A DNA stretch of 43,082 nt from Chlorobiota bacterium (GTDB taxonomy: Bacteria; Bacteroidota; Bacteroidia; Bacteroidales; F082), in contig JAADID010000060.1 in the NCBI GenBank assembly GCA_013151505.1, positions 1-43,082 of the forward strand, read 5' to 3'. Below the pieces are notes generated by a model. It searched no databases and was not told where the DNA came from. It was given only the letters and a program-made list of their open reading frames with translations. Both the position numbers and the translations under genes were made by a program. Of this stretch, positions 27,462 to 34,935 are shown in pieces (within the stretch, counting starts at the first letter, position 1; the number at the start of each line of letters is the position of its first letter).

Positions 27462-27580
27462 AACAGTCTGTTCATATTTAACCTGAGTTCGGTATCAAAA
27501 CGAGATTGTTTTGATTTAAATTTCAACACAAAGTCGTGTACTTCTTATTAATGTAAATTAAACATCTGAGTTAATTAGTC

Positions 27581-27669
27581 GAAAAATCAGTAAATAAATA
27601 TCTTTCTAATTACCCACCCCTTAATCCCCTCCCGAGAGGGGAATATCGGAATTTATTTGCTGATTTTTC
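27581..27669 (-). repeat. 89-bp palindromic element, divergent copy, inverted orientation
   Basis: Arms GAAAAATCAGTAAATAAAT and ATTTATTTGCTGATTTTTC pair at 18 of 19 positions. The core carries ACCCACCCC and CCCCTCC..GAGGGG in opposite orientation to the two other copies. Length matches them, but the arm sequence differs. Confidence 0.7.
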
Positions 27670-27686
27670 TTTATTCCAAGTGGCAA

Positions 27687-27774
27687 AAAAATTCAAAAAT
27701 GATTACCTCTTATCCCCTCCATTGGAGGGGTGTAGGGGTGGGTTATTAAAAAATCCAATCATTTTTGAATTTTT
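27687..27774 (+). repeat. 88-bp palindromic element, copy A
   Basis: Perfect 18-bp arms (AAAAATTCAAAAATGATT and its complement) surround a 52-base core with CCCCTCC-ATT-GGAGGGG and AGGGGTGGGT. Copy B at 29373 has identical arms and a nearly identical core in the same direction. Confidence 0.8.
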
Positions 27775-27975
27775 CTTTTGTCAAAACATTTAAAATGAAT
27801 AAGATACATCCCGAACTCACGTTAATTATATCCGGATAAGCATCAAACCATTTTTTGAAAATTACAATGGTTAATGCCGATAAATAATCAAAGCGATTGA
27901 AAGAGGGAAACGTATTAAACACGCTTCCGGGAATTCGGGATTAATTGATATTCGGTAGTATAACGATAATTTATT

Positions 27976-27983
27976 TATCTTTG
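27976..27983 (+). promoter_or_regulatory. Bacteroidota -7 box before membrane-protein pair
   Basis: TATCTTTG matches TAnnTTTG, 50 bases before the ATG at 28033. Confidence 0.5.
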
Positions 27984-28032
27984 ACAGGTTGGCAAACCAC
28001 CGCAAATTGTTTGCTTCTTTTAAAAAAACCGG

Positions 28033-28506
28033 ATGCCCGAAACCGATTTTGCTTTTTCCGAATGGTACCACTTCGCACTGTTGCTGCTGTGGTTGGCTGT
28101 TTTATTTGGCGGACTGTTTTTCTTCAATAAAATTGAAAAGCTTTTCAGGTTAAAGGATGATTTTAGCGATGGGAGCAAAATCGCCGTCGGCTTATTGCTT
28201 ACTTCCTTTATTTTTGGATTTGTCGTTTTTCTGGTTTTGACTTTTTCCGCCGAAACGGCGCATTCAAAAACCGCGATCATCCTTTTTTACGGGCTTGCCT
28301 TTTTGCTGCTGTTACTGAATGCTTTCACCTGTTTCAGGAACTACCTGTTACAAAGCGCGATTATCCGTTTCCTGTTGTTGTCGGCCTTAATGCTTGTTTA
28401 CTTTTATTCCGGCCTGCTTGGCGGCTTGCTGGTGATTGCTCTTTTTGCCCTGGCTGTCATTGTCTTTGCATTGTTGAAAACCAAAAAAATACTGACCATC
28501 AAATGA
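28033..28506 (+). CDS. Hypothetical integral membrane protein (four to five TM segments)
   Basis: No family is recognised. The 157-aa protein is almost entirely hydrophobic with segments FALLLLWLAVLFGGLFFF, KIAVGLLLTSFIFGFVVFLVL, AIILFYGLAFLLLLLNAF, IIRFLLLSALMLVYFYSGLL and GGLLVIALFALAVIVFALL. A short charged loop (NKIEKLFRLKDDFSDGSK) lies between the first two. No signal peptide or catalytic motif is visible. The stop overlaps the next start (ATGA, 4 bases), so the two proteins are probably made together and may form a complex. The pair is flanked by two direct copies of an 88-89 bp palindromic repeat. Confidence 0.7.
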   Translation: MPETDFAFSEWYHFALLLLWLAVLFGGLFFFNKIEKLFRLKDDFSDGSKIAVGLLLTSFIFGFVVFLVLTFSAETAHSKTAIILFYGLAFLLLLLNAFTCFRNYLLQSAIIRFLLLSALMLVYFYSGLLGGLLVIALFALAVIVFALLKTKKILTIK

Positions 28507-29336
28507 TAAATTTTTTCCTTTCCATTTTGTTCGGTGTCGTTTCCGGCTTTCTGTTGGCCGTTTCCATCCGCTACGGACTCAGAGGCGCTTCCAGACTGGA
28601 CGACTTTTTTTCAGACAAACGCAATTCCAATTACTCCGGTTTTGAATGGTACTACCGTATCCCGTTTTCTTTTGGCGTTGTTCCCGAGTATTTTTTCGCC
28701 CTTGTTCTGTCTTACGACAATTATTTCAAGCGAAACTGGTGGGCCCTGAAAACGGCCTCTTTTATTTCGGTTTTGCTGTTTATCGCATTCCTGAAAAGCC
28801 GTTCGGCTGTAACGGCTTATTTTTCCCTGGATTTTCTTAAAGAAGGTGGTATTGGCGCCCTGTTTACTTCCGGCAGTTTTGTGATGTTCATGAATATTAT
28901 TGTTTTGCTTTACGCGGCCTTGTTTGTTTTGATTTGTGTTGAAAGCGTCCGCATGCATGGAGTTTATGCCCCCGTCAGGATTGTCGTTTACAGCCTTTTG
29001 AGTTGGATGATGGCCAGCCTGACGCTCATCACACTTTCCGCCATCGTTTTCATTGCCGTGGTTTATGTCGTCATCAAGGTCATTGTCTTCCTGTTCTTTT
29101 CTTCCCGCCGGAGGCGGAAAAGAGCGGAGGAAGAAGAGGAAGAAGAATCCGCCGGTTTTGTGTTGGGAAAAGGTTTTCGGGCGTTCAAAACAGAACTTTA
29201 CCAATGGGAGCGGGAAGAAAAAAACAGGACTGGAACCAAAAACAGGACTGAAAGAACATCAAAAAGAATAAAGCGGAAAAGGCCGAAAATCAAACGCTCA
29301 TACGGTGGTGACATTCCGCGCCTTCATCCCGACTAA
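28503..29336 (+). CDS. Hypothetical membrane protein with basic/acidic cytoplasmic tail
   Basis: No family is recognised. The 277-aa protein has about four to five hydrophobic segments (FFLSILFGVVSGFLLAVSI, TASFISVLLFIAFL, FVMFMNIIVLLYAALFVLIC, LSWMMASLTLITLSAIVFIA, VVYVVIKVIVFLFF). An Arg/Lys cluster SSRRRRKRAEEEEEEE follows and then a highly basic C-terminal tail (KRIKRKRPKIKRSY). The tail should be cytoplasmic by the positive-inside rule and could contact nucleic acid or anionic lipid, which is inference. It overlaps the preceding membrane gene by 4 bases. Confidence 0.65.
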   Translation: MINFFLSILFGVVSGFLLAVSIRYGLRGASRLDDFFSDKRNSNYSGFEWYYRIPFSFGVVPEYFFALVLSYDNYFKRNWWALKTASFISVLLFIAFLKSRSAVTAYFSLDFLKEGGIGALFTSGSFVMFMNIIVLLYAALFVLICVESVRMHGVYAPVRIVVYSLLSWMMASLTLITLSAIVFIAVVYVVIKVIVFLFFSSRRRRKRAEEEEEEESAGFVLGKGFRAFKTELYQWEREEKNRTGTKNRTERTSKRIKRKRPKIKRSYGGDIPRLHPD

Positions 29337-29372
29337 ATGAAACGCCAATGAGTACATTGAAAACAAGAAGAA

Positions 29373-29461
29373 AAAAATTCAAAAATGATTACCGCTAATC
29401 CCCTCCGGCGGAGGGGCGAAGGGGTGGGTCAATAAAATAATCCAATCATTTTTGAATTTTT
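29373..29461 (+). repeat. 89-bp palindromic element, copy B
   Basis: The same 18-bp arms as copy A, perfect in both halves, with core CCCCTCC-GGC-GGAGGGG and AGGGGTGGGT. With copy A it brackets the two membrane-protein genes in direct orientation. Confidence 0.8.
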
Positions 29462-29497: not shown

Positions 29498-30580
29498 ATG
29501 ACAAAACCGGCATCAATCAGCATCAACGAAATCATCGGGAAACTCTCCGATGCCCTTGACAAAGAATACTTGAAAGGCTACTTCGGCATCCCTGATTCAA
29601 CTGAAAAAATTGAACTTTTTGAAACGGCCTTTGGTGTAAAACTTCCCGTTTCGTTTAAAACTTTCCTTCGTCATTTTGACGGTGGATTTATTCCTGACGG
29701 GAAAGCCGCCGGGCTGATTGCTTCCGGTGAATTTGAAGAAGCCGAATGGAACAGCTTCCGGTTCTTAAGCATTGACAAAATTATCAACGATTACGAAAGA
29801 CTTTACCTGGACGACTGGAAGCTTGCAGATGGTTTCAAAGGGTTTTACCCGTACATCCCTTTCGGAATGACTGCCGACGGGGAAAAGCTGGTGTTTGTGG
29901 ACAACAGCCTGCAGGAAACAGAGTCGAAGGTCTTCCTGGCGCTACACGACAGCCCTGCCTCCGGATGGTTTGTGGTAGCGGATAATTTCACGGAACTGCT
30001 GATCAACTTCTACAACACCGGCGGAGACCCCGGCCTGCTGGACTGTGATACAAAGGCAACGGCAGAAAACGCTTTGAAATTACTCGGCAGCAGGGAAGAA
30101 GAAAAAGAGGATCCCCGGGAAATCATCAAACGCACTACGGCTTACCTGGAACTTTTTCCCGACAATCCGGTCAAATACACGATCCGGGGAGATGCATACG
30201 GCGAGCTGAAACAGTACAAAAATGCCCAGGCCGATTTCAACAAAAGCCTCGACCTTGACCCAAAAATGGCGTTGGCTTACTATTGCCGCGGTTCCCTCCT
30301 GCTGTCGCTGAACCGCGCCCGGCAGGCGCTCATTGACCTCGATTCGGCACACCAGTTGGAGCCCGGTGACGCTTATTATCTGAATGGCAGGGCCGAAGCT
30401 TTTTTTGCATTAAAAAAGATGAAAAAAGCCCTGGCCGATTGTAACCGTGCCATTGAAATTGACAACCGTTACTTCAGCGCTTACTATCTTCGGCGGAAAA
30501 TATATACGACCCTGGGCGAAACTGAAAAAGCGGAAGCCGATGCGAGGGTGATTGAAGAATTGCTTGGGGAGGATGAGTAA
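29498..30580 (+). CDS. SUKH (SMI1/KNR4) domain protein with C-terminal TPR repeats
   Basis: SUKH-fold proteins are frequent immunity proteins in polymorphic toxin systems and also regulatory binders. Here residues about 35-170 have the SMI1/KNR4 pattern: KIELFETAFGVKLPVSFKTFLRHFDGG, a later WNSFRFLSIDKIINDYERL and PYIPFGMTADGEKLVFV. Residues about 200-355 hold at least three TPR units (VKYTIRGDAYGELKQYKNAQ, LAYYCRGSLLLSLNRARQAL and AYYLNGRAEAFFALKKMKKA). It is cytoplasmic, with no signal peptide. No cognate toxin is seen. It lies 134 bases upstream of a giant STAND-like NTPase on the same strand and may act with it. Confidence 0.85.
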   Translation: MTKPASISINEIIGKLSDALDKEYLKGYFGIPDSTEKIELFETAFGVKLPVSFKTFLRHFDGGFIPDGKAAGLIASGEFEEAEWNSFRFLSIDKIINDYERLYLDDWKLADGFKGFYPYIPFGMTADGEKLVFVDNSLQETESKVFLALHDSPASGWFVVADNFTELLINFYNTGGDPGLLDCDTKATAENALKLLGSREEEKEDPREIIKRTTAYLELFPDNPVKYTIRGDAYGELKQYKNAQADFNKSLDLDPKMALAYYCRGSLLLSLNRARQALIDLDSAHQLEPGDAYYLNGRAEAFFALKKMKKALADCNRAIEIDNRYFSAYYLRRKIYTTLGETEKAEADARVIEELLGEDE

Positions 30581-30714: not shown

Positions 30715-33700
30715 ATGTTTAACCGGTTCCTGGCAGATTATCAGCCTGAAGACTTGGAGATGTATGAGGTACTCCTCGAGGATGCCTATGAAACTTACCC
30801 GTATTCAATTGTTTCGGTCCTGCAGGATTATGAAGAAAATGTAGTTGAAGAAGAATATGCCAAGGCATTCAAGCGATTTATTGATTTTTTTGAAATTACG
30901 GTGCAGTATTGTTCGAGTCTGCTTCTGAGCCTTGTTAAATACCGGAAAGTTGAGTTTAATGAAACTTTACAGCAGGTTGCCACCAAGATAGTTTCCAAGC
31001 CGTTGTCAACCGGCGACTGGATAAACGATATTTTCATTGTGCTGGTAAAGGAAGCCCATACACTGATCCCTGACGAACCCATTGTTTTGAGTCTGTACGA
31101 GCTTGTTACGGAACCAAAGGGAAACATTCTTCAGGGATGGGGTTCACGAAAAGGTGAAGAGTTCAAGGGTTTGGCATTTTTCCGCAATACATACCTCGGG
31201 CACGACACTTCGCTTGCCGACGAGATATACGCCGAAGGGCTTAAACTGATAGAACCGAGAATGTTCAGGATGCTGGAAGCGCTGGCACCGCTTGAGGATA
31301 TTACCACTTTCACGGTTGACAAAGTGCTGGACAACGAAAATATCCCCGGCAAGTTCACGGTAATTCCGTTAAAAAGCGCCGACATCAACAGGGCTGTACG
31401 TATTACATCCGACACTATTCTTGAAAAGGACAAATACTACCTCATCCACAGGAAAATCAAAAAGTTCGACCATTTTAAGGATGATGAAATAATCGGCATC
31501 ACTCCATTCATAATCTACCTCCCTCTGTCGGAAGACCACGAAGGAGAACGTACTACTTTCATTTTCCAGTCGGTACACAACAAAAACTTGCGAAGGATGA
31601 TTTACGTTTCGCCAAACCTGAAAGCCAAAAGGCGGGAAACAGAACTGTTCAAAGACTTGTTTGTTTCCTTTCTGCAGGATGTTCTGAGCAAGATAAATAT
31701 CGGCAAAAACTATAAGCTTGAAATTGCTTCAGGAAAAACATGGGAGGAATACACGGAACGGCTTTCGTCGCAAACTTCCCGTTTCCTGGGCCAGATGAAA
31801 GTTGAGAAATATGACCCGGCGCTTTACGTTGACAGGAAAGAGATAAGCGGGGCATGGGAGCATTTCAACACCCTCGATGACAAAAGGGCGTTTGTTTTGC
31901 TTGGAAATGCGGGCTCGGGCAAAACCAACCTCATCTGCAATTTTGCGGAAAGGCTGATGGAAAAAGGCGATCCTGTAATCACTTTCAACAGCAAGATATT
32001 TTCTCAGATCAGCATTGAAAAAAAACTCGGGCAGGTATTCGAAGACAAGAATGCGCCGGTTGCCGAATCGCTGAAAAAACTCAACGAAATGGCCCGGAAG
32101 AACAATAAAAAAGTTGTTTTCTTTTTCGATGCCCTTAACGAGTGTCTTACTTACAACAAAGACCCGCAAAGCAACGGGCCTGTGGAACTGTTGCACGCCA
32201 TTGACAACCTGCTGGTGAAAGATGAGTACGATTCCTTCAGGCTGATGTTTACCTGCCGCACATACACATGGGAAGAAGCGTTACGTTCGGAAGAAGACAC
32301 GCTGAACCTGCCCTTGTATTTTACTTCGGACGACATACCCGACAGTGAGCAAAGGGAGAATATTGCCCTGAAAGGTTTTTCAGATGAAGAATTTCTGCTT
32401 GCATATCCCAGATACATGCAGAAATACGGGCTTACCACTACCCCCGAAGCAATTATGGAGCCGCAGTATGCATTTACAAATTCGAGGTTGCATGACCCGA
32501 TGGTGCTGAAACTGGCAAGCCAGATATACGCCGGTGGTGCGCTGCCCGAAAGCGTTCAGCAATTTGATTCGGTAAAGTTGTTTGACGCAAGACTGGGCAA
32601 ACTGAACAGTGTAAAGGGCGGACAACAGCAGATAATGATACTGGAGGATTTTGCCGCGGAACTCCGTAACAGGAAAACCGATGCGTTGCCGATGCAATTG
32701 CTTTATGCAGCCTTCGACGATGCTGAACATGAGTTACACGGACTTGCCTCACAACTGTTCAGAGGCGAAACAATGGAATGGAAAAAAGCACCCATGGGGC
32801 TGTTTGACGAGGGCTTTCTGAGGGTGGAGAAAACCACGCTTAAAGAAGAATTGCGATTTACTTATGAACGGTTTCACGAGTATATGTATGCACGGATATT
32901 TGTGCAGGAAGAAACGGAGTTGTTAAGTTCGGAAAGCCTGCCGATACCCGTCGAATCTTTTGAGTCGGAATTGCGCGACATGAAAGGTTATGCCGTTATC
33001 AACGATGCTTTGCGGCATGCACTGGCGCTGGATTACAACCGTACCGGCGGCGATCCGTTCACCATTATCGGACTGGCAAACAGCGCAGTTTACGGTGCGG
33101 CACAACTTGTAATGAACACCTTGTCATCTCTTATTTCCGATAATTATGAAGCCGTATGCTCCATCATCGGGCAGTTGCTTGAATACCGGCTTGAGGAAAC
33201 AAAACCGCTTGCCGGAGAGTTTGAAAAGAAAGAGTTGCTGCTGGCACAGGGTAACAAGGGAAAAAAGAAGTTAACCAAAGATGAGATAAAAACGCTGAAC
33301 AAGGAGATTGAAGAACTACAGGAAAAACTTAAACCGGTTATCCAGGTCAGGAAAATAGCGATGCAGACCGTTTACGAAATATTCAAATCGCCGGTCTATG
33401 ATAAGAACCTTTACAGCGGCAGTAACTCCCCTTTCGAATTGTTGTTGAAAGCCATGTCGGACCCCATGGCTAAAGTGAGGGATAATGTTTCGCTGTATAT
33501 CTATTATATTTCCAAGTATGATGTGAATATCGGGATAACCATCCTCGACCACCTTTCGGGAAATATCCTTGACACATCGTTGCTGTCGCTGGTAAAAGGT
33601 TCAAAACGGAAAGAGTTCCAGCAGTCGTTTTTGGAGCCGGCAGGACGTATCAGCCTGCTGATGGTAATCGAGGCACTAATTGAAAGGAACGATTACGAAA

Positions 33701-34935
33701 TGAGCGACAGAATAAAAAGCACGTGGACGGCCATCATGAAAAAGCTGACGCTGAACCATGCGCTGGTAAAGATCGTCATGCCGTTCCTGAAGTTTTTCAT
33801 GAGGCGACAGGCAACCGTTCAGGTAGCTTATGTGAACAACGGCATCGAATATCTGAATTTCTGGGAAGCCATTCCCGAAGACGGCGCTGAAAACGACTGG
33901 CACCGTCGTAGCTTCACCAACATTATTCCATTTCTTAATCCTGATGAAGCCGGACTGGAACAACATTACGAAGCCATTAAAAAGGGTATTGACACCGGCG
34001 ATGCTTTCAGCTATTTCCTCATCGAAAGGGTGCTGGTGGCACAGGGTTGGGCCGGATGGGAAAGGATAAAGCCTATAATAGAGGAGGTTGTAAACAAGCC
34101 GCCTGACCAGCCGTGGCTTGATTACATGCAGATGTCGATGCTGTATGTTTTGTTCCATTCCATCGAGAAATCGGACGAGCCCAATGATGAGGCTTTCGAC
34201 ATTTTCGCCCGGCTTACCGAAGAATGGTCGGAGCGGTGCAAGGGATTGTTCTTTGCCCACAAAAACGACCAGGCAAACAAAGGGCTTCCTTACAAGCAAT
34301 ATCCGTTGAACTGGTACGGAGCGGCATACTGCAAACATTACGGCGACGGCGGGACACGCCCCGGCGACCCCTATCCGCTGCCGGTTTTCAGAAACCTGAT
34401 AGATAAGGCATTTGAGAAGAAAGACCGGGAACTACTGTATTATTGCATTGAGAACATTGCAACCATGGTAACGGATTTCGGCAAACCAAAAAGCGCCATT
34501 CAACTCTTCGATTACGTGATAAGTCTTTTTAAGCATGAAAGTGAGATACACGCATTCGATATACAAAAGACCGGCCGTGAGGAATACGAGCAGGACATCA
34601 GGTCATTCCTCCGGAATATGATAGGAACCATCAAAAGCTATTATCCGCGCGAGGTTGCTTATTTTATTCACCATAAACTTGCCCATTCCGATTTCCCCGG
34701 CATGGACAGTTTCAGGGAAGACCTGATGTCGTACAACCAGTCGCACGAAAGCATCGGTGACCTGCTTACACATAAGTTCGGGAACTTTATCATCTGGGGG
34801 CTGTTGCACGACAAGGCGGTGGGCAGGTTTTTCATGGACGGCTTCAGGATTGGCGGTGAAGTGAAAGACTATTACAGTTGGTTCGACGGCATTGTAAGGA
34901 TTGCGTTCAACCGGTTGTTTGGAATTAAAGTTTGA
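30715..34935 (+). CDS. Large STAND/NACHT-like NTPase with candidate HEPN-like N-terminal motif
   Basis: The 1406-aa protein has three zones. Residues 1-390: a helical part ending in FFRNTYLGHDTS, whose R157-N158-x4-H163 matches the R(x4-6)H motif of HEPN ribonucleases, followed by a beta-rich stretch. Residues about 390-640: a P-loop NTPase with Walker A GNAGSGKT (397-404), Walker B VFFFDALNE (D472) and a sensor-like MFTCRTYTW near 512; the DALNE box and TCR are typical of NACHT/STAND switches. Residues about 640-1406: long helical, repeat-like region with one coiled-coil stretch (IKTLNKEIEELQEKLKPVI). This effector-switch-sensor plan is shared with Avs-like antiviral STANDs, but no known sensor or effector was matched. 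The HEPN reading rests on one motif. The protein is full length without frameshift. Confidence 0.75.
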   Translation: MFNRFLADYQPEDLEMYEVLLEDAYETYPYSIVSVLQDYEENVVEEEYAKAFKRFIDFFEITVQYCSSLLLSLVKYRKVEFNETLQQVATKIVSKPLSTGDWINDIFIVLVKEAHTLIPDEPIVLSLYELVTEPKGNILQGWGSRKGEEFKGLAFFRNTYLGHDTSLADEIYAEGLKLIEPRMFRMLEALAPLEDITTFTVDKVLDNENIPGKFTVIPLKSADINRAVRITSDTILEKDKYYLIHRKIKKFDHFKDDEIIGITPFIIYLPLSEDHEGERTTFIFQSVHNKNLRRMIYVSPNLKAKRRETELFKDLFVSFLQDVLSKINIGKNYKLEIASGKTWEEYTERLSSQTSRFLGQMKVEKYDPALYVDRKEISGAWEHFNTLDDKRAFVLLGNAGSGKTNLICNFAERLMEKGDPVITFNSKIFSQISIEKKLGQVFEDKNAPVAESLKKLNEMARKNNKKVVFFFDALNECLTYNKDPQSNGPVELLHAIDNLLVKDEYDSFRLMFTCRTYTWEEALRSEEDTLNLPLYFTSDDIPDSEQRENIALKGFSDEEFLLAYPRYMQKYGLTTTPEAIMEPQYAFTNSRLHDPMVLKLASQIYAGGALPESVQQFDSVKLFDARLGKLNSVKGGQQQIMILEDFAAELRNRKTDALPMQLLYAAFDDAEHELHGLASQLFRGETMEWKKAPMGLFDEGFLRVEKTTLKEELRFTYERFHEYMYARIFVQEETELLSSESLPIPVESFESELRDMKGYAVINDALRHALALDYNRTGGDPFTIIGLANSAVYGAAQLVMNTLSSLISDNYEAVCSIIGQLLEYRLEETKPLAGEFEKKELLLAQGNKGKKKLTKDEIKTLNKEIEELQEKLKPVIQVRKIAMQTVYEIFKSPVYDKNLYSGSNSPFELLLKAMSDPMAKVRDNVSLYIYYISKYDVNIGITILDHLSGNILDTSLLSLVKGSKRKEFQQSFLEPAGRISLLMVIEALIERNDYEMSDRIKSTWTAIMKKLTLNHALVKIVMPFLKFFMRRQATVQVAYVNNGIEYLNFWEAIPEDGAENDWHRRSFTNIIPFLNPDEAGLEQHYEAIKKGIDTGDAFSYFLIERVLVAQGWAGWERIKPIIEEVVNKPPDQPWLDYMQMSMLYVLFHSIEKSDEPNDEAFDIFARLTEEWSERCKGLFFAHKNDQANKGLPYKQYPLNWYGAAYCKHYGDGGTRPGDPYPLPVFRNLIDKAFEKKDRELLYYCIENIATMVTDFGKPKSAIQLFDYVISLFKHESEIHAFDIQKTGREEYEQDIRSFLRNMIGTIKSYYPREVAYFIHHKLAHSDFPGMDSFREDLMSYNQSHESIGDLLTHKFGNFIIWGLLHDKAVGRFFMDGFRIGGEVKDYYSWFDGIVRIAFNRLFGIKV

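Follow-up and report, generated by a model that had tools for sequence, protein, structure and literature searches.

The window analysed here is a stretch of 43,082 nucleotides, contig C14 of a Bacteroidota genome (G000) that comprises 3.56 Mb in 348 contigs. Three palindromic elements of 88-89 bp lie in it, at positions that an earlier, sequence-only reading of this DNA had given correctly (Table 1). Each consists of two complementary arms around a core, which is composed of a short tag (ACCCACCCC) and a CCCCTC..GAGGGG hairpin. There is one such hairpin per element, i.e. three in the window compared with 0.03 expected from shuffles, and the exact tag (ACCCACCCC or, on the other strand, GGGGTGGGT) is present in all three elements and at no other position of the window. 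When folded as single-stranded DNA, all six strands yield z-scores of -4.7 to -6.9, and none of the shuffled sequences folds equally well. Elements 2 and 3 have perfect 18-nt arms that are identical between both copies, while the arms of element 1 are 19 nt each with 18 positions paired. The sequence-only reading was thus right to distinguish two copies with identical perfect arms from a third that differs, but it misplaced the labels, the divergent copy being the first in the window and the identical pair elements 2 and 3. The tag of element 1 is reversed relative to elements 2 and 3, as had been noticed for the core of the divergent copy. The spacing of 17 nt between two oppositely oriented copies is also correct; here the letters had been muddled and the pair consists of elements 1 and 2.

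Table 1. Coordinates of the palindromic elements and of the MITE layer in the window (contig C14).
Feature	Position	Strand	Details
Target duplication, left copy	27476..27478	.	ATT
MITE, 346 bp	27479..27824	.	TIRs TAACCTGAGTTCGG (27479-27492) and CCGAACTCACGTTA (27811-27824); carries elements 1 and 2
Element 1, armed palindrome	27581..27669	+	arms 27581-27599 and 27651-27669, GAAAAATCAGTAAATAAAT type
Element 1 core	27612..27641	+	tag ACCCACCCC 27612-27620; hairpin CCCCTCCCGAGAGGGG 27626-27641
Linker between head-to-head elements 1 and 2	27670..27686	.	17 nt
Element 2, armed palindrome	27687..27774	-	arms 27687-27704 and 27757-27774, AAAAATTCAAAAATGATT type
Element 2 core	27714..27743	-	hairpin 27714-27730; tag (complement of ACCCACCCC) 27735-27743
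Target duplication, right copy	27825..27827	.	ATT
Element 3, armed palindrome, solo	29373..29461	-	arms 29373-29390 and 29444-29461, same as element 2 arms
Element 3 core	29400..29429	-	hairpin 29400-29416; tag 29421-29429

The carrier of elements 1 and 2 has the TIRs and target duplications of a MITE, which the solo copy 3 lacks. Paralogs of this MITE were aligned at four further sites of the genome (C309, C93, C115 and C128), where the flanks are unrelated; the duplications read ATT/ATT at C115 and TTT/TTT at C128 and are imperfect at C309. Most of element 1 has disappeared from C115 and C128 through a common deletion. The same head-to-head pair is found in genome G001 (contig C38) without the window MITE ends, and the loci examined contained no full IS with these ends.

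The solo copy is not surrounded by any outer terminal repeat that exceeds the permuted range. Among the solo copies compared with it, one in G001 (C351) has clear outer TIRs and the resemblance of another (C104) stays within the permuted range. The presence of element 3 is lineage-specific: the same pair of flanking genes is separated in the congener G004 by a 51-bp gap with no element and in G001 by a different insert, a comparison made at 69-71 % DNA identity, a distance at which exact insertion junctions are unreadable. Either the solo copy was gained in the G000 lineage or it was lost elsewhere since the split from the congeners. Positions 29498-30577 and 30715-34932 of the window encode a SUKH-1 (SMI1/KNR4) plus TPR protein and, after it, a NACHT/STAND NTPase of 1406 aa, possibly an immunity or defence-type pair.

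The elements belong to a family-specific palindromic repeat that is spread through the genomes of one Bacteroidota family. The existence of a repeat family had been claimed from the window, and a genome search bears this out: a covariance model detects 34 copies in G000 and has matches in 22 of 80 genomes of the family (G000 and 21 of the 79 others), with 1 to 48 copies per matching genome and a patchy distribution within genera. The pattern ACCCACCCCN(3-25)CCCCTC matches G000 18 times, compared with 0 for the reversed control pattern. The copies in G000 represent few arm types around one shared core, and their geometry is fixed (arm, 12-15 nt, core, about 9-10 nt, arm). None of the 30 copies that could be assessed lies within a gene; all are intergenic. 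In the aligned elements the tag reads ACCCACCCC or a variant thereof, and both tag and hairpin are kept across genera, including a compensated CCCCTTC/GAAGGGG form. No recurrent gene family was found beside armed elements among 212 neighbouring ORFs. An exact match to the 18-mer arm is present in 31 viral stretches, in none of which is the core nearby.

The arms keep their complementarity while their sequence changes. In 20 aligned armed elements 98 % of the arm cells are paired, and in 88 elements of other genera 94 %, compared with 71 % (maximum 76 %) when the 3' arms are permuted; both alignments were gathered partly by pairing, so that these percentages are partly so by construction, while the variety of paired arms is independent of it. 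Among the 88 elements there are 20 distinct perfect arm sequences. Of the 19 arm pairs of the first alignment, 13 have changed on both sides, and double-change cells amount to 62 compared with 17.8±3.6 in shuffles, a value reached by none of 500. A separate permutation test of arm pairing gave 93.6 % versus 69.5 % permuted. Moreover, in a test blind to the arms, 19 of the 34 dispersed cores have arms that score above every shuffle, at the fixed distance. In genomes G303 and G290, core and arms drift in step. The covariation seen in the window thus extends to further copies, and the tests back the sequence-only suggestion that a hairpin is kept by selection or by a copying process.

At least two MITE families, and probably three, carry the armed palindrome, and their ends are unrelated. 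In other genera, armed elements reside in MITEs of about 175 bp with GAAGTTGTTTAAAGTT-type ends in G303, G290, G291, G292, G342 and G296, and a third end type (CACTGATTAGTTAC-like) recurs in G289, G024 and G301. The MITEs with GAAGTTGTTTAAAGTT-type (GAAGTTG-type) ends show exact 3-bp duplications at 15 of 22 scored copies, compared with a permuted mean of 3.4 and a maximum of 9 in 5000 trials. Given these 3-bp duplications and the MITE carriage in several genomes, MITE transposition accounts for a large part of the amplification in some genomes at least.

The core itself is of a kind associated with DUF559 genes. In G000, two direct repeats of 129 bp that share 96 % identity and consist of head-to-head core copies lie on either side of a DUF559 gene (C343:2265-2582); the closest named relatives of the gene product come from Bacteroidetes/Bacteroidales MAGs. 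At 73 of 76 loci encoding relatives of this protein, the tag or the hairpin is present within 300 bp. According to the record titles, these loci derive from Bacteroidota, Ignavibacteriota, Neomarinimicrobiota, Planctomycetota and one cyanobacterial MAG. Motif matches number 397 in 44.0 kb near DUF559 versus 6 in 43.1 kb of sequence at a distance of 1 kb, and the same repeat stands on both sides of the gene at 51 of 64 loci versus 1 of 64 with shifted flanks. The core of the armed elements (ACCCACCCC plus CCCCTCC/GGAGGGG) reproduces the DUF559-flanking core almost letter for letter. Plasmid-borne DUF559 genes lie beside C/G-rich hairpins in Sinorhizobium, where the gene is bracketed by CCCTCTCCCC/GGGGAGAGGG hairpins, and in Sphingomonas, Azospirillum, Picosynechococcus, Pseudanabaena and Deinococcus. 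The case of a Photobacterium plasmid is ambiguous, hairpins being common across the whole locus, and a Geobacillus plasmid gene has no adjoining C/G-rich hairpin. None of the open-access papers searched links DUF559 to repeats. On a plasmid of Sphingomonas parapaucimobilis (1480-1890 of locus L459), a DUF559 gene with its hairpin immediately upstream separates sufB from sufC, which looks like an insertion into the operon.

Among 248 genomes of the Bacteroidota phylum, 102 have a strong DUF559 match, a number that rises to 31 of 36 for genomes with at least two cores and to 18 of 19 for those with at least four (strict core pattern; Fisher p=3e-9 and 5e-7, respectively, statistics that ignore kinship). 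Within the family, 10 of the 14 genomes with at least five armed copies have DUF559. It was not detected in G303, which has 48 armed copies, nor in G024, G312 and G342; these are incomplete MAGs, and the absence is therefore soft. The tag is degenerate in G303 and kept in G342. None of 105 DUF559-proximal cores carries arms, and armed and DUF559-linked copies therefore differ. Co-divergence of DUF559 protein and hairpin is weak (Mantel r 0.17, with 72 of 2000 permutations as high), and the pattern used retrieved no dispersed copies of the repeat beside a DUF559 paralog at C101. Since arms are absent near DUF559, DUF559 is undetected in some rich MAGs and co-divergence is weak, our claim is limited to the kind of core and does not extend to DUF559 moving the three copies in the window. 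A genome of the same class (G230) contains eight differently built cores, e.g. ACCCACCCCGCCCCGTTGGGGCACCCCTC, with no DUF559 match and possibly another partner gene.

A further DUF559 paralog in G000 (C50) adjoins a different repeat (ACCCCTCTGCCCTTCGGGCACCTCCCC), which we take to resemble rhizobial RIME1. A second dispersed palindrome, CCCCTCTGCCTTCGGCATCTCCCCC, at C119, C137, C160, C162 and C246, is like the repeat beside this paralog and presumably also resembles RIME1. No published RIME1 sequence for comparison was found in the open-access papers searched; RIME1 differs from the armed elements in having no arms.

Fold and conserved residues identify DUF559 as a predicted small PD-(D/E)XK nuclease of the EDxHD/Vsr-like type. 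The C343 protein matches PF04480 and is a sequence relative of 3hrl. The predicted structure of a close relative (pLDDT 91.9) has its best matches in 3hrl and in the homing endonuclease I-Bth0305I (prob 1.0, E 2.7e-4), with Vsr a weak match. Gln47, Asp56, Glu67, Asp69 and His73 do not vary among 25 sequences; an exact assignment of catalytic residues is putative. Caulobacter cells that lack the methylase ScmA show an SOS response for which a DUF559 protein, VsrA, is needed (PMC12907096); this agrees with a nuclease whose target is cellular DNA.

How do these elements compare with known systems? They resemble REP/BIME elements and their RAYT (TnpA-REP) partners in several respects: dispersed extragenic palindromes, single or in inverted pairs, are marked by a short conserved tag, the repeat brackets a nuclease gene, and copy numbers are lineage-specific. 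However, the linked enzyme is a PD-(D/E)XK DUF559 protein rather than a Y1 transposase, no cognate Y1 gene flanked by the repeat was found, the tag is ACCCACCCC or a variant rather than a GTAG-type tag at the foot of the hairpin, and the elements, at 88-89 bp, have a second, covarying outer stem and lie inside MITEs. Palindromic bacterial MITEs such as ERIC and Correia/NEMIS are short, non-autonomous, bounded by TIRs or wholly palindromic, and intergenic, with target duplications, features common to the window elements. Here, by contrast, the same palindrome occurs in several MITE families and its core is common to a nuclease-associated repeat. The window elements are a new form of palindromic MITE/REP-like repeats. 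The DUF559 fold and the embedding of the gene in its putative target repeat recall Vsr/EDxHD homing endonucleases of the I-Bth0305I type; unlike these, DUF559 is not borne by an intron or intein, and its target and activity are putative. attC-like sites were dismissed, because conserved ends and a variable centre, as found there, are the reverse of what these elements display.

The explanation towards which we lean slightly is that of layered, non-autonomous, MITE-borne repeats, the core of which is likely a substrate of the DUF559 nuclease, in a RAYT/REP-like logic with an unrelated enzyme. The G-rich core (tag ACCCACCCC with its CCCCTCC/GGAGGGG hairpin) would be, or descend from, the recognition structure of this nuclease, which may nick or cut DNA so that the repeat spreads by homing-like repair. 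The A+T-rich arms, 18-28 bp long and at fixed distances from the core, stay complementary as their sequence drifts, presumably either because only folding copies propagate or because fold-back of the strand lets one arm serve as template for the other. Single copies and pairs ride in several unrelated MITEs, the insertion of which creates 3-bp duplications, their ends presumably being moved by a DDE transposase in trans; elements 1 and 2 of the window travel as such MITE cargo, and element 3 is a solo copy. A broader version, in which DUF559 proteins are homing-endonuclease-like mobilisers of G-rich palindromic repeats across phyla (a PD-(D/E)XK partnership similar to that of REPs and RAYTs) and the window palindromes a derived, doubly nested, MITE-borne branch with arms paired by fold-back copying, is tentative and falls somewhat short of an even chance. 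RAYTs account for some REPs, not for these G-rich extragenic palindromes. A functional DUF559 partnership would be an analogue of REP/RAYT with an unrelated enzyme. Since DUF559 adjoins the repeat at most of the loci encoding its relatives and on plasmids in further phyla, this uncharacterised nuclease family provides a concrete, testable candidate enzyme for the spread of such repeats.

Several other readings deserve consideration. The elements could be ordinary palindromic MITEs, in which the arms are the present or former TIRs of a small DDE-transposon derivative, nested in others, the core is incidental and DUF559 is irrelevant to these copies. The large share of MITE transposition with 3-bp duplications in the amplification agrees with this, as does the lack of DUF559 in some genomes rich in armed copies, and covariation of TIRs is common to all transposon families, since both ends must follow the same transposase. 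However, on inspection the solo copies lack a clear duplication where their arms end, and an incidental core would hardly keep its tag and hairpin across genera, compensated form included, or match the DUF559-flanking core so closely; we regard this reading as unlikely. A somewhat better, albeit still doubtful, prospect is that fold-back copying, by template switching or by gene conversion from one arm to the other, rather than selection for hairpin function keeps the arms paired, an idea compatible with the layered-repeat explanation that we prefer. In G303, compensated and single changes have similar frequencies (7 versus 8 cells) and the core of two copies is inverted with respect to the flanks; in G321, where arms reach 28 bp, most long-arm copies are perfect over this length and differ from one another by double changes. 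These double changes and flipped cores point modestly to fold-back copying over selection. Nevertheless, uncorrected single changes are common, with imperfect arms in 49 of the 88 elements from other genera, and double changes can also be explained by common ancestry of sub-families. The arms of the family form natural series of paired changes on which hairpin maintenance by selection and by fold-back copying can be set against each other.

The A-rich and T-rich arms around a strong hairpin, together with the intergenic location of all assessed copies, might suggest bidirectional terminators or RNA processing hairpins that are incidentally repeated. Yet the 30 assessable sites comprise 19 tandem, 8 divergent and only 3 convergent gene pairs, i.e. 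no enrichment where terminators are needed, for which reason termination was rejected as the main role; in addition, no Rfam family matches at gathering score, and copies are carried in MITEs and absent between the same genes in congeners. This reading is very improbable. Scarcely any credence is left for REP/BIME elements moved by a RAYT (Y1) transposase, a link that the sequence-only reading had proposed to check. The style is the same, with extragenic palindromes as singles and inverted pairs, and G000 has 10 Y1 genes; however, core, arms and model matches are absent from all Y1 loci, taken up to about 1.5 kb on each side, and the two RAYTs that were checked are flanked by their own unrelated repeats. 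A RAYT/Y1 partnership was therefore rejected.

The MITE layer contains further palindromic material. A second, degenerate MITE-like palindromic repeat adjoins the first in the window at 27839-27963 (TACAATGGTTAATGCCGATA ... ATTCGGTAGTATAA); G002 and G005 contain better copies of it. The window MITE ends or close variants enclose other contents at C259:17089-17288 of G000 (L254) and in G026 (L250 and L257), the last with a C/G-rich hairpin. Finally, at C309 and C128 of G000 (L196 and L198), hairpins with a GTAGCC motif (GCCTGCC...GGCAGGC), similar to GTAG-type REPs, are lodged inside the MITE cores as palindromes within palindromes.
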